NCBI GenBank assembly: GCA_028748925.1
Contig: JAQTPE010000001.1
Coordinates: 12,065 to 58,103, forward strand
Source: Candidatus Omnitrophota bacterium
Lineage (GTDB): Bacteria; Omnitrophota; Gorgyraeia; 2-01-FULL-45-10
Direction of reading: 5' to 3'
Length of the DNA: 46,039 nt
Below, piece after piece: positions 17,611-34,270 of this stretch. Position 1 is the first letter of the stretch, and each line of letters opens with the position of its first letter. The notes beneath the pieces are model-generated. The model was given only the letters and a program-made list of their open reading frames with translations. It had not been told where the DNA came from and ran no database searches. The translations under genes and the position numbers were made by a program.

Positions 17611-18222
17611 ATGACACATGAAATGCACAGGCGGACTCATTATCTGGTAAAGAAGAATTTTCAACTCAAGTACACTCTTGCGATAGTGATAATGATATTA
17701 TCGGTAATGCTCGTAAGCGGCGCAGGGATATATGTCGGCATGTGGTCTTCCATAATAGAGAATTTTTCGAAGTTCAAGGTTTCCGAGAACCTCGAGACGG
17801 CCGAACGTATAGCGGGTTATGAGGAAGCGAGATATGGCAAAGGCGACTTCAGATTAGAGAAGATCTTCAGAGAAGCGGAATTGCTGAGCGCCCAGGAACG
17901 GGATACCCTACATAACGCTTTAAATTCAGTCAATAGGGCGCTTCTTCCCAAGATAATAATACTCGTAGCGATAATATTTATCGGCGGCATATTCGTCTCA
18001 CACAGGATAGCCGGGCCGATGTACCATTTTGAAAAATCGGCGCGGGCGATACGCGACGGGGATCTGAACGTAAACTTCAATATAAGAAAGACGGATGAGA
18101 TGAGGGATGTCGCCGTAGACCTGGAGAAGATGGTTGAGTCGCTGCATGACGACATCGCAAAGATAAAAAAAATAAATCACGATCCGGAGATTGCCGGAAT
18201 ATTGTCTAAATATAAGACATAA
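17611..18222 (+). CDS. Two-TM HAMP-domain protein without an output domain
   Basis: 203 residues. A basic N-terminus is followed by TM1 (about residues 20-45), a short periplasmic segment of about 65 residues, TM2 (about 110-130), then a HAMP domain beginning HRIAGPMYHFEKSARAIRDG, and a coiled segment that ends the protein. HAMP domains relay signals from membrane sensors to kinases or chemoreceptor tips, but here no output domain follows. The track begins at 17605, but AAGGAGG at 17598-17604 would touch that ATG; the ATG at 17611 gives the normal 6-base spacing and is preferred. The stop overlaps the next gene's ATG (TAATG), implying translational coupling with the secreted glycoamylase-like protein. 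It may be a signalling adaptor; function unknown. Confidence 0.8.
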   Translation: MTHEMHRRTHYLVKKNFQLKYTLAIVIMILSVMLVSGAGIYVGMWSSIIENFSKFKVSENLETAERIAGYEEARYGKGDFRLEKIFREAELLSAQERDTLHNALNSVNRALLPKIIILVAIIFIGGIFVSHRIAGPMYHFEKSARAIRDGDLNVNFNIRKTDEMRDVAVDLEKMVESLHDDIAKIKKINHDPEIAGILSKYKT

Positions 18223-19496
18223 TGTCAAATAGAATAGTTGCGTTAATTCTTGCCGCGGTCTTCTCAGCAGGCATTTTATCCGCTCAAACCAATGATAGCG
18301 TTCTTTCCACTTCCGGCGTGGAAACAGGTTCTTCGGATGAGAAGTTCCTCGATAAGATCGAATACGATTCCATCCTCTATTTTGTGCGCGAAATGAACCC
18401 CGCAAACGGCCTTATCAAGGATAGTTCGCGGCCCGGATCTCCCGCGAGCGTGGCGGCGGCCGGATTCGGGCTTACGGCGATATGCGTCGGTGAATCCCGC
18501 GGCTGGATCGCCAGGGACGACGCATACTATCTGGTGCTGAAGATCCTGAAGACATTCCGTGACAACGTCCCTAACGAAAGAGGCTTCTTCTATCATTTTC
18601 TTGATATGAGAACCGGTAACAGGGCATGGAATTCCGAGGTCTCATCGATAGATACCGCCCTCTTTCTTGCCGGAGCGCTCTTTGCCGGCGAATACTATAA
18701 AGGCAGTGAGGCCGAAGCGATAGCAAAAGAATTATATGAGCGTGTGGAATGGCCGTGGATGCTTAACGGCAAAAAGATCCTTTGTATGGGTTGGAAGCCC
18801 GAAGAGGGTTTCCTGCGGTACTATTGGGATTCTTATTCCGAGGCGATGATATTGTATGCGCTCGCCATAGGATCTCCGACATATCCGATCCCCGCGGAAT
18901 GCTGGTTCGAATGGAAACGGCCTGTCGATTCTTACAAGGATTACAAGGTCATCTATTGCACCACGGGAAGCATATTTACGTATCAATATTCGCATGCGTG
19001 GATAGATTTTCGTGAACTCTATGAAGGCGATACGAATTATTTCAATAATTCCATCAGCGCCGTTAAGGCTAACAGGCAGTTCTGTATCGATAATTCCGGT
19101 CTCTACAAAACATACGGTGAAAATTCATGGGGATTGAGCGCCTGTCTGGGGCCGGAAGGATACAGGGGCTATGGCGCCAAACCCGGAGAGGCTTTTAACG
19201 ATGGTACTGTACCGCCCTGCGGTATCGCGGGATCGTTTCCGTTCGATCCTATAGCGTCCCTGAACGGCTTGAAAAGATTATACACCGACCATAAAGATTT
19301 TCTATACGGCAAATATGGCTTTAAGGATGCTTTTAATCTCGATAAGAACTGGTGGGCGGAGGAGTATCTCGGTATAGATGTCGGTATCACCGTCTTAATG
19401 GTAGAGAACTACAGATCGGGCCTTGTGTGGGATAAATTTATGTCTATTGCTCCAATAGAGAACTGGACCCTTGCATGTTTTGCAAAGAGGGAATAA
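18222..19496 (+). CDS. Secreted glycoamylase-like protein (PF10091/GH144-type), putative beta-glucan hydrolase
   Basis: 424 residues. A signal peptide (VALILAAVFSAGILSAQ) precedes one (alpha/alpha)6-type domain. Family signatures include GFGLTAICVGESRGW, RGFFYHFLDM, DTALFLAGALFAGEY, DSYSEAMILYALAIGSPTYP and FTYQYSHAWIDFR. The glycoamylase-like family (PF10091) includes GH144 endo-beta-1,2-glucanases and the processing domain of cyclic beta-1,2-glucan synthases, and the DSYSE glutamate matches the YNE-type position of the family. It probably works in the periplasm or outside the cell. It is the first of three such genes here and a close relative of the C-terminal domain of the 757-residue protein. 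Substrate specificity is inferred; other beta-glucans remain possible. Confidence 0.85.
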   Translation: MSNRIVALILAAVFSAGILSAQTNDSVLSTSGVETGSSDEKFLDKIEYDSILYFVREMNPANGLIKDSSRPGSPASVAAAGFGLTAICVGESRGWIARDDAYYLVLKILKTFRDNVPNERGFFYHFLDMRTGNRAWNSEVSSIDTALFLAGALFAGEYYKGSEAEAIAKELYERVEWPWMLNGKKILCMGWKPEEGFLRYYWDSYSEAMILYALAIGSPTYPIPAECWFEWKRPVDSYKDYKVIYCTTGSIFTYQYSHAWIDFRELYEGDTNYFNNSISAVKANRQFCIDNSGLYKTYGENSWGLSACLGPEGYRGYGAKPGEAFNDGTVPPCGIAGSFPFDPIASLNGLKRLYTDHKDFLYGKYGFKDAFNLDKNWWAEEYLGIDVGITVLMVENYRSGLVWDKFMSIAPIENWTLACFAKRE

Positions 19497-19605
19497 TGGC
19501 AGTCGGTGTTTAAATGTTAGCTGTAATATGTTGTTGGATAGCGTAAGTCATTGCTGTTTGGATAGTTACGTAAATAGTGAACATAAATAAAAGTTAGAAC
19601 AGATA

Positions 19606-19641: not shown

Positions 19642-21360
19642 ATGTATAGACCTACACAAAACGGGCATAGGAGGATCATTATCCTCATCGGCATAGCAGC
19701 TCTATTACTGATTACCGTATATGGGGATTATGCTGATGGGGCCGACTTCAAAAGCGAAGATGAGCTTATCGATGAGACGCGGGCGAAGGTTGAAAGGCAT
19801 TTGAAGGATGAGTTTAGGGCGTCATCCCATACGGTTAAAGAAGAGAATGCTTTTGAAGAGCCGAAAATAATCAAAGAAGCTCCTGTAGCGATGAATGAGC
19901 CTGTGCCTGCAAAAGAAGCGCCAGCGTCCGTGCCGGCGGCTGAAAATAAGCCGGTCATCATAGAAACTCCTGTAGCAGTACAAGCTCCGCTATTGCCGAA
20001 AGATCCACCGGCAGTGCAAGCTCAGCCCATCTTGCCGAAGAAAGATCCGCCTGTAGCGCAGGATCCGTCGAACGCAGTAAAAAAAGAAGATCTCCCGTCC
20101 GATGTTATCACGATAGATCCTGAAAGCAATTCTGTAACTAAGAGCGACAAAGAGGCCATTGGTGAAGATATAGAATTTATATCCGGCATTAAAAATCCGG
20201 TACAGGTTAAGCCGCTTGTGGAACCTGTGCTAAAAAAGATGGACGTCAGCAAGATAGGGGCGAGTCCGTATTATGAGACTTATGAGGGCTTGAGGCTCTT
20301 AAAATATTTTACTGTGGCGCAGAGAGTTGAGATATACCAGGAGGCCAGGCCTATCGATTCGTATATACTGGATGCGTTCGCTATAAGATATGGAAATTGG
20401 CCTCATTCTCGATGGAATGCCAAGAGCGACTATAGGAGCCAGCTCACTCCGATATTCACCCGTGCATACGGGACCGAGATCACGATGAGTAATCCAAAGA
20501 ATAAAGAGGGTCAGATTCGGTATACTCATGACTATCGTGAGATATACAGGAACTATTATCCGAAATGGCCGCAAATAAAGAGAGAGATGTGGGACCAGAA
20601 CGAAGTGCTCTTCATGCATTCCAAGCAGATAGAGCCCATAGGCTGGAACTACACATCCAACCTGGGGTATAGATATTCTACTCTGAGCGATAAAGAAGCT
20701 CCGGCAAATATTTATAACTCTTATTACAATATCAGGCAGACATATTTTGGCAGCCTGTCGCTTGCGCCTAACGAGAAACTGGAATGGTTCGGCCAGGCGG
20801 AATATTATAAGAGCAAATACGTAAAATGCTCATGGGCCTATAGTCCCGATCATTTCCTGGGAAGGACCGAGCTCAGGATAAAATCGAACGACATGAAGAC
20901 GCTCTACGTGCCGTCATTCAGTTATTCTAAAGACTACTATTATCCGTTTGCGAATACATACCAGAAGTATGAGATACAATTCAGGGTAGGACGTGATTTC
21001 ACAAAGCGGTTCAGCGCGACGAGCACTATTAAGTACGCGATGGGTTTAAGGGATGAGCCGGACCATGACGATTGGCCGGGCGGGGTACGTACAAGGAGTC
21101 CGTTCAACGATAAAGCTTATGCCATTTCGCTGGAAAACAGATTTAGTTACAATATATACGATAGGCTTTATCTGCAGGGAGGCCTCGATATTTCAAACGG
21201 CCTCAACTGGTCGATCTTTGATAATTTTGCCATGTTAGCGGGCCTTGAGTATTACGCGCCCGGCATGATCAGGGTCGATTTTGGATGGACAGGAAACTAC
21301 TATTATAATCTGCAGGACTTTATGTCCTCTCTTTACTTTAAATTTTACCTGTTCATGTAA
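19642..21360 (+). CDS. Putative outer-membrane beta-barrel protein with a proline-rich linker
   Basis: 572 residues. A basic start (GHRR) and hydrophobic core (IIILIGIAALLLITV) form a signal peptide. A Pro/Ala/Lys/Glu-rich, low-complexity linker follows at about residues 70-165 (repeats such as LPKKDPPVAQ). The C-terminal 350 or so residues alternate aromatic and polar residues in amphipathic strands and end in LYFKFYLFM, like an outer-membrane barrel. No family was recognised. It sits first in a run of secreted glycan-handling proteins, ahead of a sugar-binding lipoprotein, so an outer-membrane route for oligosaccharides is a fair guess. The linker could span the periplasm or bind peptidoglycan. 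The start gives the full signal peptide but has no ribosome site. Confidence 0.65.
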   Translation: MYRPTQNGHRRIIILIGIAALLLITVYGDYADGADFKSEDELIDETRAKVERHLKDEFRASSHTVKEENAFEEPKIIKEAPVAMNEPVPAKEAPASVPAAENKPVIIETPVAVQAPLLPKDPPAVQAQPILPKKDPPVAQDPSNAVKKEDLPSDVITIDPESNSVTKSDKEAIGEDIEFISGIKNPVQVKPLVEPVLKKMDVSKIGASPYYETYEGLRLLKYFTVAQRVEIYQEARPIDSYILDAFAIRYGNWPHSRWNAKSDYRSQLTPIFTRAYGTEITMSNPKNKEGQIRYTHDYREIYRNYYPKWPQIKREMWDQNEVLFMHSKQIEPIGWNYTSNLGYRYSTLSDKEAPANIYNSYYNIRQTYFGSLSLAPNEKLEWFGQAEYYKSKYVKCSWAYSPDHFLGRTELRIKSNDMKTLYVPSFSYSKDYYYPFANTYQKYEIQFRVGRDFTKRFSATSTIKYAMGLRDEPDHDDWPGGVRTRSPFNDKAYAISLENRFSYNIYDRLYLQGGLDISNGLNWSIFDNFAMLAGLEYYAPGMIRVDFGWTGNYYYNLQDFMSSLYFKFYLFM

Positions 21361-21369: not shown

Positions 21370-22701
21370 ATGCGATCGATCGGATCTTCGGTCTTTGTAT
21401 TGGTTATATGTTCTTTGATAGCTATGAATTCAGGATGTTCAAGTTCCTCGTCGTCTAAAGCTTCCGCTTCCGGCGGCAAAGGCGCCGTCGAGGTTAGAGT
21501 CGCTTTCTGGGGCTCGCCCGATGAAGTCAATATAGTTAACGACATCATCGGCGCCTGGCAAAAATCGCATCCCGAGATAATAGTGAAACTGGACCATACG
21601 CCATATCGCGGTTATGTCGATAAGCTGCTTACCAGGATCGCCGGGCGTTCGGCTCCCGATATAATATGCACGGAGGTAGACCTCTTCGTAACGTTCCAGT
21701 CAAAGGATGTGCTGCTTGATCTGACGCCTTTTATGAAAGCCAACCCGGAATTCAGCACAAAGCAGTTCTATCCTGAAATAATTAACAGATTCACGGTTGA
21801 CGGCAAACTATACGCGATCCCTAGAGACACAGCGCCTTTTGCCTGTGTCTATTACAACAAAAAGCTCTTTGATGAAGCGGGCGTTCCTTATCCGAAGGAT
21901 GATTGGAACCTGGACGACTTATTGGATAAAGCACGGAAGTTGACGAAGACGGACAAGGACGGGCGGGTCACTCAATACGGATTCTACGCTTGGGCGTGGC
22001 CGAATTTTGTATACGCCTTTGGCGGAAGCATGGTTGACGATGTTAAGAACCCGTCCAAGTGTACGCTAAATTCCGGGAAATCGATCGCGGGGCTGCAATT
22101 CTATTCGGATTTGATAAATAAGTATAAGGTGCATCCGACTTCGACCGCTATGACGAATCTCGCTATGGGCGTTCAGGGAATGTTCATGACAGGAAGGCTC
22201 GCGATGTTCTCATCCGGCATATGGGAGACGCCGGGTTTGAGGAAGATGGCGTCACTCGATTGGGATGTAGCGATGTTTCCCAAAGGCCCCGGCGGCATAA
22301 GGGCTTTCGGTACGGGCGGTTCAGGTTACTGCATATTGAAAGAGACGAAGAATCCCGAGGCCGCTTTTGAGGTGATAAAAGCGCTTGCCGGCAGATCCGG
22401 TCAGACGATGTTAGCCGATACGGGCCTCGCGCAACCGGCCATAAAAGATATAGCACAGAGCGGGCATTGGGCGTTTGACAATAAGAAGCCCAAGAATAAA
22501 TCTATGCTTGACGAGGCGATGAAGTATGTCATATATGAACCTTTTCATCCCGCATGGAGAGAGGCCAAGGAGTTATATATAAATCCCGAACTTGATATGG
22601 TCTTCAGCGGGAAGAGGAGCGTGGAGGATGCGGTAGAGAATTTTACCGTTAAAGTGGATCGTTTGTTGAAAAACTTGGGGAAAAATGGAAAGGGGGAGTA
22701 G
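21370..22701 (+). CDS. ABC sugar transporter, substrate-binding lipoprotein (family 1 solute-binding)
   Basis: 443 residues. A lipoprotein signal (VLVICSLIAMNSGC) is followed by a serine-rich tether (SSSSSSKAS) and a typical MalE/UgpB-type binding protein fold: EVRVAFWGSPDEVNIVNDII, APDIICTEVD, KLYAIPRDTAPFACVYYNKKLFDEAGVPYP, VQGMFMTGRLAMFSSGIWETP. These proteins capture oligosaccharides in the periplasm for MalF/MalG-type permeases. The matching permeases are found about 7 kb downstream at 29557-31339, separated by secreted glycan proteins, so the importer is split within one locus. The start ATG 21370 follows GTAAGGG. The ligand is unknown; the neighbouring glycoamylase-like genes suggest glucan oligosaccharides. 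Confidence 0.9.
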   Translation: MRSIGSSVFVLVICSLIAMNSGCSSSSSSKASASGGKGAVEVRVAFWGSPDEVNIVNDIIGAWQKSHPEIIVKLDHTPYRGYVDKLLTRIAGRSAPDIICTEVDLFVTFQSKDVLLDLTPFMKANPEFSTKQFYPEIINRFTVDGKLYAIPRDTAPFACVYYNKKLFDEAGVPYPKDDWNLDDLLDKARKLTKTDKDGRVTQYGFYAWAWPNFVYAFGGSMVDDVKNPSKCTLNSGKSIAGLQFYSDLINKYKVHPTSTAMTNLAMGVQGMFMTGRLAMFSSGIWETPGLRKMASLDWDVAMFPKGPGGIRAFGTGGSGYCILKETKNPEAAFEVIKALAGRSGQTMLADTGLAQPAIKDIAQSGHWAFDNKKPKNKSMLDEAMKYVIYEPFHPAWREAKELYINPELDMVFSGKRSVEDAVENFTVKVDRLLKNLGKNGKGE

Positions 22702-22703: not shown

Positions 22704-23312
22704 ATGTTTAAAAGAAGCATGTGTATCGCGATGATTGCTGTCTTGTTGGCTGCGTTCGCGCCGGTCAGCTCTTTCGCGGCAGTAAAGTCGAGTTCGAGTG
22801 AGCTCATGGTGGCCGATTTCAATACCGGCGACAAGCCCAGCAATATCGGGGGTGATTTCGGATCGTGGAATAAAGATCCCGCGGACTTCACCCAGGGCTG
22901 CACCGAAGCCTTCGACAGCGCCAACAGGCATGGCGATGCGGGGTTCGCAATGAAGCTCGAGTATAGCGTAGATTCCAAGAACCCGGCGTATAACGGATTC
23001 TGGATGGCGCTTCCAAATATCGATGTCTCCGGATACGATAATTTGGCTTTCTGGGTGAAGGGAGATGCGAAGTCCGGATACACCACCGTATTTAAAGTCG
23101 AGCTTAAGAATGCCGGAAAACAGATCGGTCGTTACTATGCAACGAATGTTACCGACCAGTGGCAGGAAGTAGTTATACCTTTATCCGAATTCAAGGGCTT
23201 GACGGACACTTCCAATCTGACGGAGTTCGTCATAGTATTTGAAGACAGGATAGCTTCGAATAAGAAGGGCATCATTTATATAGATGATGTCAGGTTTACG
23301 AAGAATAAATAA
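22704..23312 (+). CDS. Secreted jelly-roll protein (CBM11/CIA30-like carbohydrate-binding fold)
   Basis: 202 residues with a signal peptide (CIAMIAVLLAAFAPVSSFA) and one beta-sandwich domain. The domain starts MVADFNTGDKPSNIGG, contains NGFWMALPNIDVSGYDNLAFWVKGD, and ends KGIIYIDDVRFTK. This start-to-finish pattern resembles galactose-binding-like modules such as CBM11 or CIA30. Very similar modules occur in four other proteins of the locus, and the closest paralogue is the lipoprotein at 31443. It begins two bases after the binding-protein gene, with AGGGGGAG as ribosome site, so the two are in one operon. A free periplasmic or extracellular lectin that concentrates substrate is the likely role; binding has not been shown. 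Confidence 0.75.
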   Translation: MFKRSMCIAMIAVLLAAFAPVSSFAAVKSSSSELMVADFNTGDKPSNIGGDFGSWNKDPADFTQGCTEAFDSANRHGDAGFAMKLEYSVDSKNPAYNGFWMALPNIDVSGYDNLAFWVKGDAKSGYTTVFKVELKNAGKQIGRYYATNVTDQWQEVVIPLSEFKGLTDTSNLTEFVIVFEDRIASNKKGIIYIDDVRFTKNK

Positions 23313-23329
23313 GGGGTTGTTAAACTGAA

Positions 23330-23393
23330 GATAGCGGGGCAGGTTTACCTGTCCGCCGTAATCCTGGCGAAGGCGAAAACCCGCCCTGCTATC
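23330..23393. repeat. Palindromic intergenic element with 17-bp imperfect stem
   Basis: GATAGCGGGGCAGGTTT (23330-23346) pairs with AAACCCGCCCTGCTATC (23377-23393), with two imperfect positions. The apical part contains CGCCGTAATCCTGGCG, itself able to pair. There is no T-run. It fills most of the gap between two genes and resembles dispersed palindromes in other uncultivated-lineage genomes. Confidence 0.65.
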
Positions 23394-23416
23394 TATCATC
23401 AAAACTAAAACAATTT

Positions 23417-25690
23417 ATGAGAAAAATATTATTTTTTTGCTTACTTTTTACCGCCTTTTTAAATAGATCGTCCTATGCGCAGGATACCGCGGATTATAAA
23501 TTTATACCTCCGCTCGTCCTCTCTGATTATAACGATGGATCCACAATGAACAATCTTGGGGGTATTTCCGGAGGAGACGCGGAGCTGCCCGGTACGGCAT
23601 ATGCCGCGATAGTTTCGGATAACAGTTTCCGCCGCGGCGAATCCGGCTCGGCTCTCAGGATAGATTACGATGTGCCGCTTCCGGGAGATTACTCTTTCTA
23701 CTGGATCAAGATGGGCAAAGAACTCTACGGTAAGCCGGGCGTCACAGCGGCATTCGACATGGGGCTTTATAATTATCTCTCTTTCTGGATAAAAGGGGAC
23801 CCCGATATCAAGAATATTAAGGTAGAGGTTCACCAGGATGTCGATAATAACGGCATATTTGTATTTGGCAAAGATGTTACGGCCTTCGTATATACGGATC
23901 CATATATGGACGGCGTTGTTGATAAGAACTGGAAGAAGGTAGTGATACCGCTGGCGGATTTCCCCTTGATAAAAGACTGGTCCAAGATAATCGAGATCGT
24001 CTTTGTCTTTGAGAACAAGAACGGTACCCCGAAAGGCACGCTATATTTGGATGATATGATCCTCGGCTATAGGCCCCCTCCTGTGTTGATGTCAAAAGAT
24101 ATAAAGGAGATAGCCGCTCCGATAGAGTCATCATTCAAAGTGAACGGCGCAAATTCCAAACAATGTCTTACATTCAAGGGTTCGAATGTTCTTACTATAA
24201 ACACCGGGAACGTATACGATAATCCATATATTGAAAGTTTCAGGTTTGAATACAGCGCAGATAAAGGAGATACATGGAGGACCATAGGGACTGATTATGA
24301 TGTTTCAAAAAATACGCATAATTTGAATTGGAATCCGGATAATTCGAGAGAACTTCTGCGTTATCAGGTGAGGGCCGTCGCTTCCGATATCCGCGGCAAT
24401 GATAAGGCGACCCGGGTCCTGATAGACTGTCCCGTGCAGCCTATTACCGACGATGAATTCCTCGATATGATAGAGAAGAAAGCATTTGACTTCTTCCTTG
24501 ACCACCAGAACCTGGGCACAGGGTTATTCTCCGACACTACCGGGGGCGGTGACGCGAGTATCGCTTCCACGGGTTTCGGGCTCGCCGCTCTGTGTATAGG
24601 GGCCGAGCGCGGATGGATCTCAAAGTATGACGCCCAGAAGAGGATCATACTTGCGCTTGACGCTTTTCTGCCTAAACCCGGAAACGAAGAGTCTATGGCC
24701 GCCGGAAGATACGGGTTCTTCTACCATTTTCTGGATATTAATACCGGTAAACGAGCCGGAAAGAGCGAGATATCCACTGTCGATACCGCCATACTTGTGT
24801 GCGGAGCCATAACGGCCGGGGAATATTTCGGAGGCGATATTAAGAAGAAAGCGGATAAGATATATGAGAGGGTGGAGTGGGAGAAATTTTTATGCCGGGA
24901 CAAAGGCCCGTTTCTTAATATATTCTCGATGGGCTGGTCTCCCGAGCGGGGGATGCTGGAGTCGTACTGGGACTATTACACAGATGAAGTTATAATCATA
25001 GATCTCCTGGCTATAGGGTCTCCCACGCATCCGGTTCCTCCGGAGGCATTCTACGCGTGGATTAGAAATAAGGGCTCTTACGGCGGCGGGAAAGAATTCA
25101 TATACACATGGCATGGCGCCCTCTTCTCTTATCAGTATGCCAATGCATGGTTCGATTTTAGGAACCTGGTGGATAAGAATGGCGTCAACTGGTTCGATAA
25201 TTCCACGAACGCGACTTTGGCTAACAGGCAGTTCTGCATCGATAATGCCGATAAGTTTAAAGGGTATGGCCCTAATGGCTGGGGCATTACTTCAATGGCG
25301 AGGCCGGAAGCCTACACCATGCATTTTGGAGTTCCTCCTACGGGGAACGGAGAGCCGGAATACGACGGCACACTGTCTCCTACCGGCCCGGCCGGATCGA
25401 TAGTATTCACTCCGTATCTTTCTCTCTCCGCGCTGAAAACCATGTATATGAATTATCCCCGGCTCTGGGGACAGTACGGTATGAAGGACTCATTTGACGC
25501 GGATAAGAACTGGTATTCGATGACATATTACGGTATCGGCGAAGCGATGATACTGCTGCCGATAGAGAATTTTCGGACAGGATTTGTCTGGAAATATTTC
25601 ATGAAGAGCCCGTTTATCCAGGATGCTCTTAAGAAAGCGGGATTTACCAAAGTTAAAAAACGCCTGCCTGCCCGGCAGGCAGGGAGGTAA
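23417..25690 (+). CDS. Secreted two-module protein: jelly-roll binding domain plus glycoamylase-like (GH144-type) domain
   Basis: 757 residues. Signal peptide 1-21 (FCLLFTAFLNRSSYAQ), then a jelly-roll module (about 35-215; LVLSDYNDGSTMNNLGG to KGTLYLDDMILG). A beta-rich linker (about 220-345) contains an Ig/FN3-like stretch (RFEYSADKGDTWRTIG). The catalytic domain (about 350-745) has GFGLAALCIGAERGW, YGFFYHFLDINTGK, DYYTDEVIIIDLLAIGSPTHP and FSYQYANAWFDFR. The last domain closely parallels the 424-residue protein at 18222, making them paralogues with and without a binding module. The C-terminus LPARQAGR is encoded by a palindromic repeat and is probably an add-on. There is no clear ribosome site at ATG 23417. 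Likely periplasmic or secreted beta-glucan hydrolase; the substrate is inferred. Confidence 0.85.
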   Translation: MRKILFFCLLFTAFLNRSSYAQDTADYKFIPPLVLSDYNDGSTMNNLGGISGGDAELPGTAYAAIVSDNSFRRGESGSALRIDYDVPLPGDYSFYWIKMGKELYGKPGVTAAFDMGLYNYLSFWIKGDPDIKNIKVEVHQDVDNNGIFVFGKDVTAFVYTDPYMDGVVDKNWKKVVIPLADFPLIKDWSKIIEIVFVFENKNGTPKGTLYLDDMILGYRPPPVLMSKDIKEIAAPIESSFKVNGANSKQCLTFKGSNVLTINTGNVYDNPYIESFRFEYSADKGDTWRTIGTDYDVSKNTHNLNWNPDNSRELLRYQVRAVASDIRGNDKATRVLIDCPVQPITDDEFLDMIEKKAFDFFLDHQNLGTGLFSDTTGGGDASIASTGFGLAALCIGAERGWISKYDAQKRIILALDAFLPKPGNEESMAAGRYGFFYHFLDINTGKRAGKSEISTVDTAILVCGAITAGEYFGGDIKKKADKIYERVEWEKFLCRDKGPFLNIFSMGWSPERGMLESYWDYYTDEVIIIDLLAIGSPTHPVPPEAFYAWIRNKGSYGGGKEFIYTWHGALFSYQYANAWFDFRNLVDKNGVNWFDNSTNATLANRQFCIDNADKFKGYGPNGWGITSMARPEAYTMHFGVPPTGNGEPEYDGTLSPTGPAGSIVFTPYLSLSALKTMYMNYPRLWGQYGMKDSFDADKNWYSMTYYGIGEAMILLPIENFRTGFVWKYFMKSPFIQDALKKAGFTKVKKRLPARQAGR
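25663..25683. repeat. Perfect 21-bp palindrome at a gene end (LPARQAGR-type repeat)
   Basis: CCTGCCTGCC and GGCAGGCAGG are 10-bp perfect arms around one central C. The element encodes the last residues of the upstream protein (LPARQAGR), and its right arm runs into AGGGAGGTAA, the ribosome site of the next gene. Such CTGCCTGCC-type palindromes recur at gene ends in many uncultivated bacterial genomes. Confidence 0.8.
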
Positions 25691-25694
25691 TTCT

Positions 25695-27470
25695 ATGAAA
25701 AGAAGCCCTGCCGCGGTTCTTTTAGCCGCATCATTAATGGTTTTCCTGTGCGCATCCTCTGCTTTTTCACAGGAAGAGGGTACCGGGACAGAGGCTGTTT
25801 CACCCGTTGCCGCTATAAAGAGCGCCCAGGATTGGGATGGAGCCAGGGCAGAAAGCGAGAAGGCGATAAATGCCTGTAAATCCTACGATGATTATGAGAA
25901 GCTTGCTTCCGAGATTAAGAAGGCGGGCCTAAGGTCCGTAAAAGAGCCCAAATATTCAGACATACTCTACTATATGTGCGCTAAGAACAGGGTCAAGGAG
26001 CTGTCGTATCTGACAAAAAAGAACGATATAGATTCGGGCCGCATATATATGTCCGTCAGCGAAAAGTACTACAACGACGCCCTTACCTGTCTCGATAAAG
26101 CCTTACAGGCTACGAAGTCCAAGGACCTGAGCCTCGACATATGTTTCTTAAGGTTCCTTATATTCAAGGAGATGTTCCAGACGGAAAAGATGGACGCGGT
26201 CTTCGGTGAAATGATCGAAAAAATAGCTTCTTATTCTCCGGATACTTCGAAGAATGTGGCGAAACTGAACGAGCTTTCGCAGCTATTTAGCGAAGAGGGG
26301 CTGGGTGACTATGCGATGAAGCTGAAGCTCCTGTACGCCTCAAAGGTTGACGCCGACAGCGCCAGGATGATCGCCGACGACATAAAGGCAAGCGCCGATA
26401 AATATTTCGACGCGGGCCGCGCCAAAGAGGCTCTCGCGACTTATGACACATATCTGCAGCTTGCGGAAAATTATTATGACAAGGACGCATATGGGCCGAA
26501 AATAATGGATGTTGCGGAGAGGTATTTTAATAAGAACCATTATAAAGAGGCCGTAAAATATTATTCGGTCTACCTCTTTAAATACAGTGATTCGCCGGTC
26601 GCAGATTATTGCAGCTACAGGCTTGGTATGTCGCTGTACTACAATAAGGAATACAAAAAGGCCATAGAGAAACTCGAGGAGTTCCTGAATACTTATCAGA
26701 ATAGTGTGTGGTTTGAAAAAGCTTTTGAGAGCCTATGTAAACTCTATTACGAAAATCTGGGCATAGATGACGCCATAGAGGCTCTTCAGAAGATATCGGA
26801 TAAATATCCGCGCAGGGACTCGAGAGATTATGCGTATCTGCTTATGGGTATACTCTATTACAACAATACGGATTACGATAAGTCGGCCCAGACGCTTAAA
26901 AAGATAGAGAGCGATTTTCCGAGAAGCGTCTATATTTACGCATCGCGACAACTTATACAGGATATAGGCGATATAAAGAAAGGCGCGGCTCCGTCCTACA
27001 GTTTCGGCTCAAAAGATCTGTATAAGATCTGGGAGCCTTATATGTATATAAACTGCGATATAACTGTGAGTGATGGCGCCGAAACCGTTAAAGATAAAGA
27101 TTCAAAACCCGGGGAGATATTCATAAAGACCGCGCCCGGAGCCAAAGTTACATTTAATATGACCGGCCTCGAGGATATGGACAGGTTCAACGAATATATG
27201 CAGGACAAAGAGGACCAGTCGAGATTGCCGCGCAAGATCAGGGATGGAACGGAGAAGGATCTCGTATTCTTTTCATGGGCCGGACCCGAAGGCGGTAAGT
27301 TTATGGATGATAAGCAGGCGCTCTCAAGGGTTTGGCAAGCACCCAATGAGCCGGGTAATTACACCATGACCATCAATATAGGCGATCTTGGACTTATTCG
27401 TCCGCCTGATACCGGCGCAAAAAAAGATCCTGCGAAGACCCTTACCGTGCATATCAGCGTAGAAAAATAA
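25695..27470 (+). CDS. Secreted TPR-repeat protein with a C-terminal beta-rich domain
   Basis: 591 residues from the ATG at 25695. The track's earlier start (25623) reads through the palindrome, whereas 25695 follows GGGAGG and opens directly into a signal peptide (AAVLLAASLMVFLCASSAFS). Residues about 100-440 are helical repeats of the TPR type, for example YFDAGRAKEALATYDTYLQL, HYKEAVKYYSVYLFKYSDSP and EYKKAIEKLEEFLNTYQNS, resembling the periplasmic scaffold proteins YbgF and BamD. The last 120 or so residues form a beta-rich domain starting YMYINCDITVSDG. It sits between two glycoamylase-like genes, so it may organise the secreted enzymes or the outer-membrane protein. No specific family was recognised. 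Confidence 0.8.
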   Translation: MKRSPAAVLLAASLMVFLCASSAFSQEEGTGTEAVSPVAAIKSAQDWDGARAESEKAINACKSYDDYEKLASEIKKAGLRSVKEPKYSDILYYMCAKNRVKELSYLTKKNDIDSGRIYMSVSEKYYNDALTCLDKALQATKSKDLSLDICFLRFLIFKEMFQTEKMDAVFGEMIEKIASYSPDTSKNVAKLNELSQLFSEEGLGDYAMKLKLLYASKVDADSARMIADDIKASADKYFDAGRAKEALATYDTYLQLAENYYDKDAYGPKIMDVAERYFNKNHYKEAVKYYSVYLFKYSDSPVADYCSYRLGMSLYYNKEYKKAIEKLEEFLNTYQNSVWFEKAFESLCKLYYENLGIDDAIEALQKISDKYPRRDSRDYAYLLMGILYYNNTDYDKSAQTLKKIESDFPRSVYIYASRQLIQDIGDIKKGAAPSYSFGSKDLYKIWEPYMYINCDITVSDGAETVKDKDSKPGEIFIKTAPGAKVTFNMTGLEDMDRFNEYMQDKEDQSRLPRKIRDGTEKDLVFFSWAGPEGGKFMDDKQALSRVWQAPNEPGNYTMTINIGDLGLIRPPDTGAKKDPAKTLTVHISVEK

Positions 27471-27483: not shown

Positions 27484-29532
27484 ATGCGTAGGCTTAAGCC
27501 CGCTTCGTTAATAGTTTTTATAAGCCTGTTTCTTTTCAGACCTCAGGTTCTTTCCGGCGCCGAGTCCAATAAGCCTGAGCCCGCGACCTTCATAATAGCC
27601 GATTTTAATAATGGAGCCATGTTCAGCAATCTGCAAACTGAAATGGGCACTTGGGAGATGAACCCCGAGGATGAAGCCCAGAGCATAGAAGCCTCATTGG
27701 ACAAAAATATAAAAATGGGTAAGAGCGGCTATTCGTTAAAGATAGACTACAATGTCGGTTCCCCAAAGAATGCCGTCAACGGTTTCTGGATGCAGATGAG
27801 ATTTTTTGACGCTTCACCGTATGATCATTTTGAGTTTTATGTAAAGGGCGATAAGGATAAGGGCTCTACCGGCGTATTCAAGATAGAATTCAAGAAATTG
27901 AATAGGAGCTCTGACGGCGAAGAAGAGACGGTAAGGGGGAGTTTTATAGTAAAGGGCGTCACCGGCGAATGGCGTAAGATATCTATCCCGCTGAATGTTA
28001 TGAACGGGATAACCGACTGGAAACAGATGGGAGAATTTGTAATCACTTTTGAGAAGAGGCGCGTCGATAGTCTTAAAGGCACTCTGTATTTTGACGATTT
28101 AGCGTTTGTGAAGACCGGATCTCCCGGGCCAAGTATCAGTGATCCCGTAGAGCATAAGGCCAAGAAGACGAAGACTGCTCTCCCGCCGGCCGAATTCGCG
28201 AAATTTTTGATCAAGAGGCTCAAGGGTTTTCCATCGAAAGTATTTTTGGATAAAACTTTCCCGAAAGACGATAGGGCCATGTTGATGGAGATAGCAAAAG
28301 ATACGTGGAACTATTTTGACATGTTTGTAGACAAGAATTATCAGCTCCCGATAGATAATGTTGAGTTCGCGGCGGACGGAACGGTTTCCGGCGGGACAAA
28401 AATAGGGGACTATACTAATATCACGAATGTAGGGCTCTATCTAATGTGTATCGTGGCAGGATACGATTTCAAATTTATAACTAAAGAGGACGCTGTCAAC
28501 AGGCTTAATCTTACGCTCGATTCGATAGAGAAGCTGGAGAAGTACAAAAATTTTCCGTATAATTATTATGATATTACGATATTCCAGAGGACGAGCAACT
28601 TCGTCTCTTTTGTGGATTCAGGCTGGCTCGCCGCGGGTATCGTAGTGATAAAGAACGCGTTCCCGGAAATTTTAGGCGAAAGATGCCGGAAGATACTGGA
28701 TGGTATGGACTTCTCTTTTTTTTATGACGAAGTGGAAGAAGAGATGTATCATGGATTTTACACAAACATAAACCATTATTCCGATTACAATTACGGCGTG
28801 CTCTACACCGAGCCCAGAGCGATCAGTTATCTTGCCATAGGCAAGGGCGACGTTCCGAAGGATCACTGGTTTAAATTGGCAAGGACTTTTCCAGATACGT
28901 GGGCCTGGCAGACCCAGATGCCGAAAGGCAGGAGAGAGAAGACTTACCTGGGATGCGTTACCGAAGGCGGGTATTATACTTATAATAACACGAAATTTGT
29001 TCCCAGTTGGGGCGGCAGCATGTTCGAAGCGTTAATGCCAACCATCATAATCGATGAGAAGAGGCTGGCTCCGAAAGGACTGGGCGCGAACGATGAAAGA
29101 CATGTTAATATCCAGATTAAATATGCGCTCGAGAAACTATCATATCCTGTATTTGGAATGTCTCCTTCTTCCATACCGGAAGGCGGCTACAGTGAGTATG
29201 GAGTAAAGCCTCTCGGTATAAAAGGCTATAAACCGGGTGTGGTCACTCCGCATGCGACATTCCTGGCGCTTGAATTCGCCCCAAAAGAGTGCATAGCCAA
29301 TATACGCAAGATGCTGAAGCTCTATAATGTTTATGGAGAGTGCGGATTTTACGACGCCATAAACGTGGAGACGGGTAAAGTGGCGATCAAATATCTGTGT
29401 CTGGACCAGGCGATGTCATTTCTGGCGCTCGATAATTATTTGAATGACGGGGCCATACGCAGGCGTTTTGCCGCGGATTCTATAAACAGGCGCGCGGTGG
29501 AATTACTGAAAGTAGAGGATTTCTTTGATTAA
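27484..29532 (+). CDS. Secreted jelly-roll plus glycoamylase-like protein (cyclic-glucan-synthase-type C-terminal domain)
   Basis: 682 residues. Signal peptide about 1-26, then a jelly-roll module (about 35-215; FIIADFNNGAMFSNLQ to KGTLYFDDLAFVK). A short basic linker leads to an (alpha/alpha)6-type catalytic region (about 255-680). Signatures NITNVGLYLMCIVAGYDF, FVSFVDSGWLAAG, PSWGGSMFEALMP, TPHATFLALEFAPKE and YGECGFYDAINVETG closely follow the glycoamylase domain of NdvB-type cyclic beta-1,2-glucan synthases and related glycosidases. It is a different subgroup from the two other glycoamylase-like proteins here. It follows the TPR gene by 13 bases. The similarity to beta-1,2-glucan enzymes is the main reason for suggesting that substrate. 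Confidence 0.85.
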   Translation: MRRLKPASLIVFISLFLFRPQVLSGAESNKPEPATFIIADFNNGAMFSNLQTEMGTWEMNPEDEAQSIEASLDKNIKMGKSGYSLKIDYNVGSPKNAVNGFWMQMRFFDASPYDHFEFYVKGDKDKGSTGVFKIEFKKLNRSSDGEEETVRGSFIVKGVTGEWRKISIPLNVMNGITDWKQMGEFVITFEKRRVDSLKGTLYFDDLAFVKTGSPGPSISDPVEHKAKKTKTALPPAEFAKFLIKRLKGFPSKVFLDKTFPKDDRAMLMEIAKDTWNYFDMFVDKNYQLPIDNVEFAADGTVSGGTKIGDYTNITNVGLYLMCIVAGYDFKFITKEDAVNRLNLTLDSIEKLEKYKNFPYNYYDITIFQRTSNFVSFVDSGWLAAGIVVIKNAFPEILGERCRKILDGMDFSFFYDEVEEEMYHGFYTNINHYSDYNYGVLYTEPRAISYLAIGKGDVPKDHWFKLARTFPDTWAWQTQMPKGRREKTYLGCVTEGGYYTYNNTKFVPSWGGSMFEALMPTIIIDEKRLAPKGLGANDERHVNIQIKYALEKLSYPVFGMSPSSIPEGGYSEYGVKPLGIKGYKPGVVTPHATFLALEFAPKECIANIRKMLKLYNVYGECGFYDAINVETGKVAIKYLCLDQAMSFLALDNYLNDGAIRRRFAADSINRRAVELLKVEDFFD

Positions 29533-29556: not shown

Positions 29557-30495
29557 ATGTTAAGAAGCTCTGCTAAAGAAACGGCGGCCGGATATCTGTT
29601 TCTACTGCCAAATCTTCTGGGATTTTTGGTATTTACGCTTGTCCCCGTCGCATTGTCGCTCGCTTTAAGTCTCGTTGATTGGGATATGCTCTCGGCCCCT
29701 AAATTTGTCGGGCTGGCAAATTTTGTCAATCTTTTGGGTTTCCATACCGAGAACGGGTCATTTATCCCAAACGATCCGCTATTCTGGAAATGTGTAGGCA
29801 ACACCCTCTTCTTGATGATAATAATACCTGTCGAGATGATGGTGGCGTTATTATTGGCGCTGGCTATGAACCAGAAGATAAAAGGGGTGAAGTTATTCAG
29901 AACTTTATATTTTCTTCCGACGATAACAAATGGCGTGGCCATATGCCTTCTCTGGGCATGGCTCTACAATTATGATTTCGGTTTGTTGAACGGCCTTATA
30001 ATAAAACTGGGCGGTTTTTTGAATTTAAGTTTTAAAGGGATACCCTGGCTGACCTCTACGGTATGGTCGAAGCCTTCGCTGATGATAATGGGCTTATGGA
30101 TAGCTATGGGCGGTTATAATATGATACTGTTTGTGGCCGCCCTCCAGGGGGTCCCCAGAGAGCTCTATGAGGCCGCCGAAATAGACGGAGCGGATCCGTG
30201 GCATAAATTCTGGTCCGTAACATGGCCGATGATAAGCCCTACTACATTTTTTATCGCTATAATGGCGGTCATAGGAGGGTTCCAGGGCGGGTTCATGCAG
30301 GCATATGTCATGACAGGCGGCGGACCCCAGCGGTCTACAACGACTCTGGAATATCTTATATATAATCATCTCTACAGCTGGCAGCATGTCGGATACGCGG
30401 CGTCCATAGCATGGTTCGTATTCGTTATCGTGTTCGTCATAACTTTATTCAATTGGCGTTTTGGCGGTAAATTAGTGCAGTATTACCACTACTGA
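29557..30495 (+). CDS. ABC sugar transporter permease (MalF/UgpA type)
   Basis: 312 residues with about six membrane segments, beginning GYLFLLPNLLGFLVFTLVPVALS. The EAA loop that docks the ATPase reads ELYEAAEIDGADPWHKFWSVTWP. With the MalG-type partner that starts one base after its stop, it forms the inner-membrane channel for the binding lipoprotein at 21370. No ATPase gene is in the window, so a shared MsmK/UgpC-type ATPase from elsewhere is presumably used. The start lacks a ribosome site and lies just after an extended -10. Confidence 0.92.
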   Translation: MLRSSAKETAAGYLFLLPNLLGFLVFTLVPVALSLALSLVDWDMLSAPKFVGLANFVNLLGFHTENGSFIPNDPLFWKCVGNTLFLMIIIPVEMMVALLLALAMNQKIKGVKLFRTLYFLPTITNGVAICLLWAWLYNYDFGLLNGLIIKLGGFLNLSFKGIPWLTSTVWSKPSLMIMGLWIAMGGYNMILFVAALQGVPRELYEAAEIDGADPWHKFWSVTWPMISPTTFFIAIMAVIGGFQGGFMQAYVMTGGGPQRSTTTLEYLIYNHLYSWQHVGYAASIAWFVFVIVFVITLFNWRFGGKLVQYYHY

Positions 30496-30496
30496 T

Positions 30497-31339
30497 ATGG
30501 TATATAGAAATATCCTGCGGAAAACTTTTTCCTATAGCTTCCTTATCATGGGAGCCGTTACCATGGTGTTGCCTTTCGCCTGGATGGTGTCCACATCGCT
30601 TAAATCTTATAGTTCGGTCTTCATATTCGATATTAACGAAATCAATTGGATACCCAATCCTGTATACTGGAAAAACTATATAGACGTCTGGAAGGTAGTA
30701 CCGTTCGCCAGATTCTACTTTAACAGCCTATTTGTTTGTATCACCGTAACTTTAGCGCAGGTCGCGACGAGCGCTTTGGCCGCATACTCTTTTTCGAGAT
30801 TAAAATTTCCGGGCAGGGAGAAGATATTCTTTTCTTATCTGGCCACTATGATGATACCCGGATCCGTTACGATGATACCGGTCTTTGTGCTTATGAGGAT
30901 GTTTGGCTGGATCGATTCGTACAAGGCGTTGATAATACCGGCGGCTTTCTCGGCGTACGGCACCTTCATGCTGCGCCAATTTTTTATGACGATACCGAGG
31001 GATCTGGAAGATGCCGCCAAGATAGACGGATGCAATCACTGGAGCATATTCTGCAAAGTCATACTGCCGCTGTCGAAAACGGCGCTCGCCACGCTTACCG
31101 TATTCGTGGCTCTTGGAAATTGGGTGAGCTTCATGTGGCCTCTGTTAGTCACTAACTCGCTGGAAAAGAGGACGCTTCCCGTGGGGCTGGCTTATTTCCA
31201 GGAGATGTATCAATACGCCCAGCCCGACTGGGGGCTCTTGATGGCCGGGTCACTCGTTACGATGATTCCGATCATAGTGATTTTTATATTCGGCCAGAAA
31301 TTCTTTGTGGAAGGAATTAAGTTAACCGGATTAAAATAG
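30497..31339 (+). CDS. ABC sugar transporter permease (MalG/UgpE type)
   Basis: 280 residues with six predicted membrane segments (for example FLIMGAVTMVLPFAWMVSTS and a C-terminal GSLVTMIPIIVIFIFGQKFF). The EAA loop is DLEDAAKIDGCNHWSIFCKVILP. The C-terminal KFFVEGIKLTGLK motif is typical of MalG homologues. It starts one base after the MalF-type gene, without its own clear ribosome site, so translation is probably coupled. The substrate is inferred to be an oligosaccharide released by the neighbouring hydrolases. Confidence 0.92.
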   Translation: MVYRNILRKTFSYSFLIMGAVTMVLPFAWMVSTSLKSYSSVFIFDINEINWIPNPVYWKNYIDVWKVVPFARFYFNSLFVCITVTLAQVATSALAAYSFSRLKFPGREKIFFSYLATMMIPGSVTMIPVFVLMRMFGWIDSYKALIIPAAFSAYGTFMLRQFFMTIPRDLEDAAKIDGCNHWSIFCKVILPLSKTALATLTVFVALGNWVSFMWPLLVTNSLEKRTLPVGLAYFQEMYQYAQPDWGLLMAGSLVTMIPIIVIFIFGQKFFVEGIKLTGLK

Positions 31340-31364: not shown

Positions 31365-31421
31365 GTATTGTGTATCGTGTATATAATATACACGCAATAC
31401 TCAATACACTATACTCAATAC
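31365..31421. promoter_or_regulatory. AT-rich palindrome and direct repeats, possible operator
   Basis: CGTGTATAT-A-ATATACACG (31376-31394) is a perfect 9-bp-arm palindrome flanked by GTATTG (31365) and CAATAC (31395). ATACTCAATAC occurs twice, at 31397-31407 and 31411-31421. The block lies just upstream of the lipoprotein gene at 31443. It could bind the ROK regulator encoded 1.6 kb downstream, or it could be a dispersed low-complexity repeat. Confidence 0.45.
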
Positions 31422-31442
31422 GAAAAAGGAGGAGAGGTAAAG

Positions 31443-32246
31443 ATGAAGAGGATAATGGTTTTATTATTAGCGTTATTGTTCGTAGTTCCTTTAGTGGCGG
31501 GATGCGGCCAGAGCCGGCAGCCTCAGGATGAAAAGAAGCCTATAGAGATAAAGCCGGATAATGCGGTTATGGATGATGAAGAGGTCACGGAACCGGAAGA
31601 GGCGTCGGACGCTGTTGCTGAGTCGACCTTAGAAAAACCGGAAACTCAGGCTATATATCCGAAAGAAACCTCCGCAACGGCCCAAGCGCCAAATCCGGCA
31701 GCGCCTGAGTATTCCGAGGAGATTATTGTGGCAGATTTCAATAGTGGGGAGAAGCCGAATAATCTCGGAGGGAATTTCGGAGCGTGGAATAAGGATCCGT
31801 CCGATCCGACTCAGTGGTGCAAAGAGGGTTTTGACAATGTATCCAGGCATGGAGATACCGGATTCGCGATGAAACTTGACTACAGCGTGGACTCGCCCAA
31901 TCCGGCTTACAATGGGTTTTGGATGGTGCTTCCCAATTTTGACGCTACAAAGTACGATGCCCTGAATATGTGGATTAAGGGGGACTCCAAGGCCGGATAC
32001 ACGACGGTACTTAAACTGGAATTGAAGAATGCCGGTAAGCAGATAGGACGCTACTATATCTCTAATGTGAGCGATCAGTGGCAGGATATCTCTATACCTT
32101 TATCCGAATTTAAGGGCTTGATCGACAGGTCGAGTCTGACTGAATTCGTCGTTGTATTCGAGGATAGGATGGCTTCGAATAAGAAGGGCGTGCTTTATAT
32201 AGACGATATAAGGTTCGTAAAATTTGCTTCTGCCGACAAGGTTTAG
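31443..32246 (+). CDS. Jelly-roll lipoprotein (CBM11/CIA30-like)
   Basis: 267 residues from ATG 31443, chosen over the track's 31368 because AAAGGAGGAGAGG precedes it and the lipobox signal (LLFVVPLVAGC) follows directly. After a charged, acidic linker (about 20-95, rich in E, P and A), a single jelly-roll module begins IIVADFNSGEKPNNLGG and ends KGVLYIDDIRFVK. The module is highly similar throughout to the free secreted protein at 22704, so the two are recent paralogues, one soluble and one lipid-anchored. The likely role is holding glycan at a membrane surface. Ligand unknown. Confidence 0.8.
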   Translation: MKRIMVLLLALLFVVPLVAGCGQSRQPQDEKKPIEIKPDNAVMDDEEVTEPEEASDAVAESTLEKPETQAIYPKETSATAQAPNPAAPEYSEEIIVADFNSGEKPNNLGGNFGAWNKDPSDPTQWCKEGFDNVSRHGDTGFAMKLDYSVDSPNPAYNGFWMVLPNFDATKYDALNMWIKGDSKAGYTTVLKLELKNAGKQIGRYYISNVSDQWQDISIPLSEFKGLIDRSSLTEFVVVFEDRMASNKKGVLYIDDIRFVKFASADKV

Positions 32247-32297: not shown

Positions 32298-32300
32298 CGG

Positions 32301-33050
32301 ATGAATGCGGGAAATAACGTCTATATGAACAAGCGCGTAGATATCCAGGACGAGATAGCGAAAACATATTTTAGCGCCATGCCTAAAAAGCATGGTAAGA
32401 AGAAGCCGAAATGGAGATCGTTCCTGCCCTGGGCGGTGGCTATACTGGCTCTCTTCTTTGCGGCGGCGATATTGATCTTTAATAGTTCCATAGAGGTCAA
32501 AGTGCGTTTCCTTGGAGAGATACCCTCTTTGCCGATTGACAAAGGTGCGTATAAGATCGGCGAAAATCTCGATAAGGGGATATTTCTTGTAGAAGCCGGA
32601 GTGCCGAACAAGGATATAGTAAAGAACGCTTACTTTATGGGAGACGCCAAAGAGTTCAGCATCGATAGGCCGGATGAGCTGGTTCTTTGTAACTCCAGGG
32701 GATCCGGCTGGGCAAATTACACTATAGAGCTTAAAGAGCCCATAGATCTGGATAAACTGGATATAAGGTATATGGCGAGAGGCGTCCGGGGAGATGAATT
32801 CCTATCTCTTGTTATAGTGGACAGCAATAAGCGCAGTTACAGGCTTGAAAAAGATCTTTCGTCGGCCATGGGCAAGGATTGGCAGAGGTATACGATAAGT
32901 TTCAGGCGGGTTAAGAAAGCCGTGGATATTTCGAATATATCTACGATAAAATTTGAGTTTGGCACTCTGACCGTCGGAAATTATCCGAGCGCGGTTATGT
33001 CGCTGAAAGATGTGTATATAACAAAAACAGGAAGGTTGAAATGGCTGTAA
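32301..33050 (+). CDS. Inner-membrane-anchored jelly-roll protein
   Basis: 249 residues. A basic cytoplasmic N-terminus (KKHGKKKPKWR) precedes one membrane segment (WAVAILALFFAAAILIF, about residues 48-65), then a periplasmic beta-sandwich of about 180 residues with DELVLCNSRGSGWANYTIEL, DWQRYTISFRR and SLKDVYITKTG. The pattern follows the carbohydrate-binding-like modules of the locus but is more distant from them. The start is unsure: ATG 32301 (weak GGCGG upstream) or ATG 32325 (no ribosome site). It overlaps the ROK gene by 10 bases, suggesting joint control, and could present ligand near the importer. Function is not established. Confidence 0.7.
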   Translation: MNAGNNVYMNKRVDIQDEIAKTYFSAMPKKHGKKKPKWRSFLPWAVAILALFFAAAILIFNSSIEVKVRFLGEIPSLPIDKGAYKIGENLDKGIFLVEAGVPNKDIVKNAYFMGDAKEFSIDRPDELVLCNSRGSGWANYTIELKEPIDLDKLDIRYMARGVRGDEFLSLVIVDSNKRSYRLEKDLSSAMGKDWQRYTISFRRVKKAVDISNISTIKFEFGTLTVGNYPSAVMSLKDVYITKTGRLKWL

Positions 33051-34270
33051 AAAGAGAGAGCGTCTTTACCTATCATGTTTCGCAGGACAGGCAGCGCAAA
33101 AACTTATCTATCCTGGAGCTCATAAGGAAGAAGGGCCCTATTTCGAGAGCCGACATATCCAGAGTGCTTGGGCTTAATATAGTGAGCGTATCGAATTATC
33201 TCGATTTTTATATTAATAAGAAGATGATACTTGAAGTAGGGTACGATGTTTCGAGCGGAGGGCGCAGGCCGGAACTGTTGGAGCTCAACGCGAAGAGCGC
33301 TTATATAGTGGGCGTTGATATAGGCCCGGACAACATGAAAGCCGTGGTGACCGATCTGCAGGTAAACGTTGTCTCCAGCGCATACGCTCCGAGGCCGAAC
33401 GTCGGCTTGGAAGATCTTCCCGGGTATGTATTAAAAGTGATCGAAGAGGCCGTTTATAAAAGCAAGCTTGATAAGAGCGCCTTAAAGAATATAGGTATAG
33501 GCACATCCGGCATTATAGATTATGTCATGGGGACTATTCATGATACGGACCCTGTAAGGGGCAGGAGCAAGACGAGCCTTCTGAAGTTCTGTAAAGCTAT
33601 AGAACAGAAGTTCTATGTACCCGTATATATAGGTAACGACGCGTCCTGCGCGGCGTTCGGAGAGAAGACGCTGAATCACGCCGCGGATGTGGAGAATATG
33701 CTTTATATATATTCCGACATAGGCCTGGGGATAATTATGCAGAACGATGTATATTGCGGATCGAGCGGCTGCGCCGGAGAGATACAGCTCGTATTTTCAG
33801 GCCTTCAGAAAGATGAAAAGAGTATTATGAAGGAATATACCCACATGAGGCCGTGGGGCGTGGATCTGGGTGTGGTTATGGAAGCTATGAGAGCGATAGA
33901 TAAAGGCGTTTCAACCGAGATCCTCGGTATGGCAGGCGGTGATGTTACCAAACTTACGAAAGAGATTGTCATAGCCGCCGCTAAAAAGAGGGATAAACTG
34001 GCGGTAGAGCTTGTCTCGAATGCCGCCAGGAATCTCGGGGTGAGAGTGGCGTATCTGGTGAATATATTCAATCCGGATATAGTGGTCATAGGCGGCGGAA
34101 TTGAGAAATCCGGAGAGGTATTTATGGATGCCATAAAAGAGATGGTGAAGAAGTTCTCCTTTGAAGAGCCTGCGAGCATGGTCAGGATAGTTCCGACGCT
34201 CCTGGAGGATAATTCGGTTGTGCTGGGCGCGGCGGCACTCGCGGCAAGAGAAGTCTTTATCGAAGCGTAA
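33041..34270 (+). CDS. ROK-family transcriptional regulator (NagC/XylR type)
   Basis: 409 residues. An N-terminal winged helix-turn-helix (about 15-70; IRKKGPISRADISRVLGL) is followed by a two-lobed ROK domain: GVDIGPDNMKAVVTDL, GIGTSGIIDYVMGTI, YIGNDASCAAFGE and VVIGGGIEKSGE. Members sense sugars and repress sugar-use genes. The zinc-type cysteine cluster of many ROK proteins is not evident; only GSSGCAGE remains. The start at ATG 33041 overlaps the preceding gene by 10 bases. Its place at the end of the glycan-use genes makes it the likely local regulator, with possible binding at the palindrome near 31376. It could alternatively be a sugar kinase fusion, but the DNA-binding part favours regulation. 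Confidence 0.88.
   Translation: MAVKRESVFTYHVSQDRQRKNLSILELIRKKGPISRADISRVLGLNIVSVSNYLDFYINKKMILEVGYDVSSGGRRPELLELNAKSAYIVGVDIGPDNMKAVVTDLQVNVVSSAYAPRPNVGLEDLPGYVLKVIEEAVYKSKLDKSALKNIGIGTSGIIDYVMGTIHDTDPVRGRSKTSLLKFCKAIEQKFYVPVYIGNDASCAAFGEKTLNHAADVENMLYIYSDIGLGIIMQNDVYCGSSGCAGEIQLVFSGLQKDEKSIMKEYTHMRPWGVDLGVVMEAMRAIDKGVSTEILGMAGGDVTKLTKEIVIAAAKKRDKLAVELVSNAARNLGVRVAYLVNIFNPDIVVIGGGIEKSGEVFMDAIKEMVKKFSFEEPASMVRIVPTLLEDNSVVLGAAALAAREVFIEA

Follow-up and report, generated by a model that had tools for sequence, protein, structure and literature searches.

We propose that a run of genes in a Candidatus Omnitrophota bacterium is probably a beta-1,2-glucan utilisation locus, in which the glucan would be depolymerised outside the cell or in the periplasm and the oligosaccharides taken up by an ATP-binding cassette (ABC) importer. 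The run (17605-34270) lies in a stretch of 46,039 nucleotides, here called the window (G000:C1:12065-58103), from an assembly (G000, GCA_028748925.1) of 1.58 Mb in 158 contigs that is 92.1% complete; what we say of this genome's content rests on family searches. Its genes are all open and on the + strand, tightly packed with short gaps or overlaps, and by Pfam they encode a HAMP protein, three Glycoamylase (PF10091) proteins (GHa, GHb and GHc), an extracellular solute-binding protein (SBP), two permeases, two CBM11-like proteins (CBM11a and CBM11b), a TPR protein and a ROK protein (Table 1). Gene content, family placement, catalytic residues, synteny and co-occurrence were observed directly and are set out below, while substrate and transported sugar are predicted at family level, and the direction of transport, the roles of the barrel and TPR proteins, and regulation are predictions too. 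An original prediction made from the DNA alone had read this 17-kb, one-strand run as a locus for beta-1,2-glucan capture and import, with three glycoamylase-like proteins; the genes lie where it placed them, all three proteins match PF10091, and the overall reading came through the checks of family placement and synteny proposed for it. Because the tested enzymes of GH144, GH192, GH193 and GH194 act specifically on beta-1,2-glucan (PMC12102758), and because the same elements make up a cluster of Ignavibacterium album, depolymerisation and uptake of this glucan is the most likely function.

Catalytic domains

GHa and GHb fall in a 100/100 GH144 clade with CpSGL, XcSGL and BDI_3064. Both carry the residues sought for a GH144 enzyme, namely a general-acid Glu (E207 in GHa, E524 in GHb), the Phe near the nucleophilic water (F252, F570), a stacking Tyr (Y314 or Y317 in GHa; in GHb the position falls on Y633 or F637, depending on the alignment) and an acidic residue at the position of CpSGL E142, the candidate bases being D144 and D456. 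With this strong tree support GHa and GHb are GH144 proteins, and they are predicted to be inverting endo-beta-1,2-glucanases.

The third enzyme departs from the original description of all three as GH144/NdvB-type, since it falls outside GH144 and, judged by its residues, would not work as a GH189/NdvB transglycosylase. The best sequence match of GHc is the GH189 enzyme TiCGS, and both profile and fold matches place it in the SGL clan, whose enzymes are returned by Foldseek for a model of moderate confidence (pLDDT 68). GHc shares with TiCGS the acid Glu, the Asp of VDSG and the clan Phe, its own clan residues being E443 as acid, D378 as candidate base and F514, but it is a stand-alone secreted protein that differs at three points. 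The position of TiCGS E1442, the GH189 nucleophile (PMC10834661), is P561 in GHc and either Pro or Ser across all orthologues; the synthase His pair is replaced by Leu-Asp; and GHc has nothing that corresponds to some 160 residues of 8wy1 (146-303), the additional helices that lie between alpha4 and alpha5 in GH189 only (PMC12102758). Nucleophile, His pair and insert together rule out an active GH189 transglycosylase. In the tree GHc stands apart from the 100/100 GH189 clade, in a group of stand-alone Gram-positive and haloarchaeal proteins (from Fictibacillus, Alkalihalobacillus, Haladaptatus and Nonomuraea) that all have Pro at the nucleophile position; the tree does not settle the order inside this group. 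The GH193 family, to which SkSGL belongs, is described as a sister of GH189 that lacks the insert and the nucleophile Glu and occurs mainly in Gram-positives (PMC12102758). GHc fits GH193 in its position beside GH189, in lacking both features and in its stand-alone Gram-positive relatives, a match made to the published description with a tree that does not include SkSGL; it differs in its N-terminal CBM11-like module. All three catalytic domains are thus placed among families acting on beta-1,2-glucan, two in GH144 and one in a group beside GH189 that fits the description of GH193.

Synteny and co-occurrence

The locus is syntenic in relatives, the order HAMP-GHa-barrel-SBP-CBM11a-GHb-TPR-GHc-permeases-(CBM11b)-249 aa-ROK being kept in about a dozen genomes, in some of them only in parts limited by contig ends; as this order recurs so often, the grouping is not one of chance. 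Of 26 relatives, 13 have orthologues of both GHb and GHc and the other 13 have neither, although these relatives are akin and do not amount to 26 independent cases. The locus holds additional genes in genera g15 and g18 and in G092, a member of another family; in some of these genomes they include a response regulator and a histidine kinase, and a soluble GH94 of about 795 aa stands beside the SBP gene in G021, G024, G092 and L097. Farther afield, the same elements are found in Ignavibacteria-type, Bacillota and haloarchaeal loci.

The pair formed by the HAMP and GH144 genes is kept in many Omnitrophota and in Elusimicrobia, and occurs with the remainder of the locus missing in L101, L103, L105, L108, L114, L126, L132, L135 and L146 (Omnitrophota) and in L083 and L087 (Elusimicrobia), the last two having CBM11-like genes and, as judged by eye, a GH35-like protein beside it.

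Binding modules, barrel and importer

The split ABC importer, the TPR protein and the ROK regulator named in the original prediction all have clear Pfam matches. Its beta-barrel, which has no Pfam match, is borne out by an AlphaFold2 model of moderate confidence with about 16 long beta-strands (mean pLDDT 69) for which Foldseek returns outer-membrane barrels, OmpG first (E 1e-5). Four of the five jelly rolls that it counted are well supported, these being CBM11a, CBM11b and the N-termini of GHc, which is CBM11 by Foldseek, and of GHb, where orthologues are matched by the GHc (682-aa) query at about 34%; the fifth, in the 249-aa protein, which is without a Pfam match, is weak. No ATPase is encoded within the run, but G000 has one MalK-type ATPase, at G000:C68, as do most relatives. 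The best PDB match of the SBP is an arabino-oligosaccharide binding protein (3e-44), and Lin1841, which binds beta-1,2-glucooligosaccharides (Sop_n), follows at 2e-16 with others scoring higher.

A membrane protein with a GH94 end

A protein of about 2060 aa, with a signal peptide, a jelly roll, many transmembrane (TM) helices and a GH94 end, is found whole or in part in 13 of 13 locus-bearing relatives. Its gene stands ahead of GHc in some of g15, g18 and G092, and away from the locus in the g1, g8 and g10 relatives. No full-length copy was found among the locus-negative relatives tested, where any GH94 is a distant one of about 800-900 aa, nor in G000, where its absence may be an assembly gap since the genus-mates G002 and G003 carry it. 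The last TM helix is followed by RALSRRSRKRR, which by the positive-inside rule suggests that the GH94 end is cytosolic. A split cyclic glucan synthase is rejected, no glycosyltransferase domain being recognised in this protein.

Proposed function and alternatives

In the model that we favour, beta-1,2-glucan would be cleaved to short oligosaccharides (Sop_n) by the three secreted enzymes of GH144 and GH193-like type, two of which bear CBM11-like modules. The barrel would pass the glucan or its oligosaccharides through the outer membrane, and the CBM11-like and TPR proteins may tether enzymes or substrate to the envelope. From the SBP the oligosaccharides would pass to the two permeases, with power from a MalK-type ATPase that is shared and encoded outside the run, and the operon would be under the control of the ROK protein. 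In several relatives a locus-encoded GH94 phosphorylase would finally free glucose 1-phosphate. A more elaborate version, to which we give a low probability, is that the locus harvests osmoregulated beta-1,2-glucans from bacteria that serve as prey or host, and that the ~2060-aa protein, through its periplasmic jelly roll, polytopic membrane domain and GH94, links uptake with phosphorolysis, a design so far undescribed for beta-1,2-glucan.

Several observations weigh against this reading. Family searches of the 92.1% complete assembly found no GH94, GH3 or GH35 that would act on the imported sugar. The SBP appears nearer to the arabino-oligosaccharide binder than to the Sop-binding Lin1841, and the CBM11 matched by Foldseek is one that binds beta-1,3-1,4-glucan, another possible ligand.

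Two alternatives are both unlikely, to a similar degree. In the first, the locus would trim or recycle a self-made beta-1,2-glucan, with the enzymes governing how long the periplasmic chains are and the importer salvaging fragments. The NdvB-like GH94 end of the ~2060-aa protein, encoded in or near the locus in relatives, and the presence of more SGL-clan domains elsewhere in the genome are consistent with this; yet the protein has no recognised glycosyltransferase domain, none of the PF10091 matches in G000 belongs to a GT-GH189-GH94 synthase, the genome has no GH94, and an SBP, permeases, binding lipoproteins and a ROK protein suit uptake better. In the second, the specificity of the SGL-clan enzymes would have shifted towards another beta-glucan, for example a mixed-linkage or substituted one, or towards a decorated beta-1,2-glucan. 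Here the CBM11-like modules, with their structural match to a beta-1,3-1,4-glucan binder, and the similarity of the SBP to several oligosaccharide binders would agree, whereas the catalytic residues are kept. A role in attack on other cells, in which GHa, the HAMP protein and the giant protein encoded upstream would open the envelope of prey with import as a secondary matter, is highly improbable. In its favour, predation or parasitism has been proposed for the phylum (PMC10066038), HAMP-GHa directly follows the giant gene in four relatives, and other Omnitrophota have the HAMP-GH144 pair without the remaining genes. Yet this is no more than adjacency, G092 showed no giant gene next to the locus, and such a role is compatible with uptake more than an alternative to it. 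Any link between this locus and predation is an inference.

Features of the locus and neighbouring genes

Table 1. Features of the locus, in window coordinates
Feature	Position	Strand	Evidence and remarks
HAMP protein	17605..18222	+	2 TM helices; HAMP domain PF00672 E 4e-8; overlaps GHa gene
GHa, GH144-type with signal peptide	18222..19496	+	PF10091 E 1e-71; best PDB match XcSGL (8xul), phmmer 5e-70; GH144 clade
Outer-membrane-type beta-barrel	19642..21360	+	AlphaFold2 model and Foldseek; disordered N-terminal stretch first
SBP, probable lipoprotein	21370..22701	+	PF01547 2e-39
CBM11a, CBM11-like secreted protein	22704..23312	+	PF03425 5e-9
Hairpin in CBM11a-GHb gap	23329..23394	+	minimum free energy -40.2 kcal/mol, z -4.5
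GHb (757 aa): N-terminal CBM11-like jelly roll, middle domain, GH144 catalytic domain	23417..25690	+	PF10091 1e-61; best PDB match XcSGL (8xul), phmmer 2e-67
TPR protein, secreted, YbgF/BamD-like repeats	25623..27470	+	TPR_6 2e-9; NCBIfam YbgF and BamD below cut-off
GHc (682 aa): CBM11-like jelly roll, SGL-clan domain	27484..29532	+	PF10091 2e-21
ABC permease 1	29557..30495	+	PF00528 2e-14
ABC permease 2	30497..31339	+	PF00528 5e-20
CBM11b, CBM11-like lipoprotein	31368..32246	+	PF03425 8e-7; lipobox VAGC
Single-TM protein (249 aa), possible jelly-roll domain	32301..33050	+	hhalign to CBM11 group E 1e-4, probability 57%
ROK-family regulator with winged helix-turn-helix	33041..34270	+	PF00480 2e-39; NagC/Mlc models below cut-off

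Two of the annotated starts call for comment, as the first ATG of the TPR gene falls in the overlap with GHb, the true start likely lying downstream, and the real start of CBM11b is probably the internal ATG ahead of MKRIMVLLLA, which gives the lipobox. The HAMP protein, which like the lack of an ATPase in the run was no part of the original prediction, has no kinase domain by Pfam. The 3' end of GHb holds a palindrome, CCTGCCTGCC C GGCAGGCAGG (25663-25683), which overlaps the annotated TPR start and yields an unusual GHb tail, LPARQAGR, missing from orthologues. The hairpin between CBM11a and GHb has counterparts in the same gap of G002, G012, G017, G020 and G023 that are strong and of unrelated sequence, with none in G003, G010 and G021, and it is rejected as a conserved RNA element on account of this variation and these absences. 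No Rfam match was found in the window, and promoter and terminator scans stayed near the shuffled background.

Directly upstream of the locus is an IS200-like (Y1) transposase-family gene (16844-17533). At 6355-16443 lies a gene for a 3362-aa protein with PFK-like and weak phosphoglucomutase-like domains, whose N-terminal part is kept directly upstream of the HAMP gene in G002, G007, G020 and G021, in the last together with a C-terminal part. Just before the window, L007 (2-12064) holds a frame of more than 4021 aa with HEAT repeats and a divergent PF10091 domain in normal order, which runs from the contig edge to a gap of N; the window frame at 126-5438 (1770 aa) may be its continuation. Giant proteins of four genomes have SGL-clan domains (residues 1384-1819 of L149, 1575-2009 of L150, 1667-2098 of L151 and 291-725 of L152, in G020, G017, G021 and G014 respectively) that appear circularly permuted, the C-terminal part of the GHc profile (~555-683) preceding the N-terminal part (~262-556) over a short link. 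After the locus, 34303-37803 encodes an M48 peptidase, a 339-aa protein without a Pfam match, an arginase-family protein and a pyruvoyl-dependent arginine decarboxylase, a block of which parts keep their place in G012, G021 and G092.

Comparison with known systems

The locus would supply a concrete and testable food source for some members of a phylum that is uncultured and suspected of a predatory or parasitic life, beta-1,2-glucans being made by bacteria. Its CBM11 fusions and its secreted GH193-like enzyme add architectures to the SGL clan, and it draws attention to a membrane-bound GH94 protein that is still uncharacterised. In the literature searched we found no paper that mentions GH144 together with Omnitrophota.

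The importer layout is not new, being already known from I. album and Listeria. The original prediction had expected a layout different from the polysaccharide loci of Bacteroidota; the lack of SusC/SusD does not make a new layout, as an SGL, GH94 and ABC importer combination is published for I. album. In that cluster two GH144 enzymes are joined by a GH94 akin to the domain of the cyclic glucan synthase and by an ABC importer whose Sop_n-binding protein is putative (PMC8861115). All of these elements are common to the window's Omnitrophota relatives, and no SusC/SusD-based layout is required. The I. album cluster differs in having a GH35 (IaSGT), and in the text consulted CBM11-like proteins, a TPR protein, a HAMP protein and a GH193-like enzyme are not described for it; the window's own copy is without GH94 and GH35. 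In Listeria innocua the cluster lin1839-1841 encodes SOGP, a GH3 and a Sop_n-binding protein, and the same source summarises it as ABC import of beta-1,2-glucooligosaccharides that are then phosphorolysed or hydrolysed inside the cell. The predicted uptake is shared, but Listeria is Gram-positive, the SBP of the window resembles Lin1841 only distantly, and the window genome shows neither GH94 nor GH3. Set against both clusters, the window holds the SGL enzymes and the ABC importer, with SBP and permeases, but not the cytosolic Sop_n-processing enzyme (GH94, GH3 or GH35).

Like the polysaccharide utilisation loci of Bacteroidota, the locus brings together enzymes, binding proteins, an outer-membrane protein and a regulator; unlike them, and as originally predicted, it has no SusC/SusD among the Pfam matches of its genes, with a CUT1-type ABC importer and a porin-like barrel for uptake instead. 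A Haladaptatus cluster with ABC genes and a GH3 is also without SusC/SusD. What is new is the occurrence of such a system in Omnitrophota and its make-up, with CBM11-like fusions and a lipoprotein, a barrel, TPR and HAMP proteins, a GH193-like enzyme and, in relatives, a membrane GH94.
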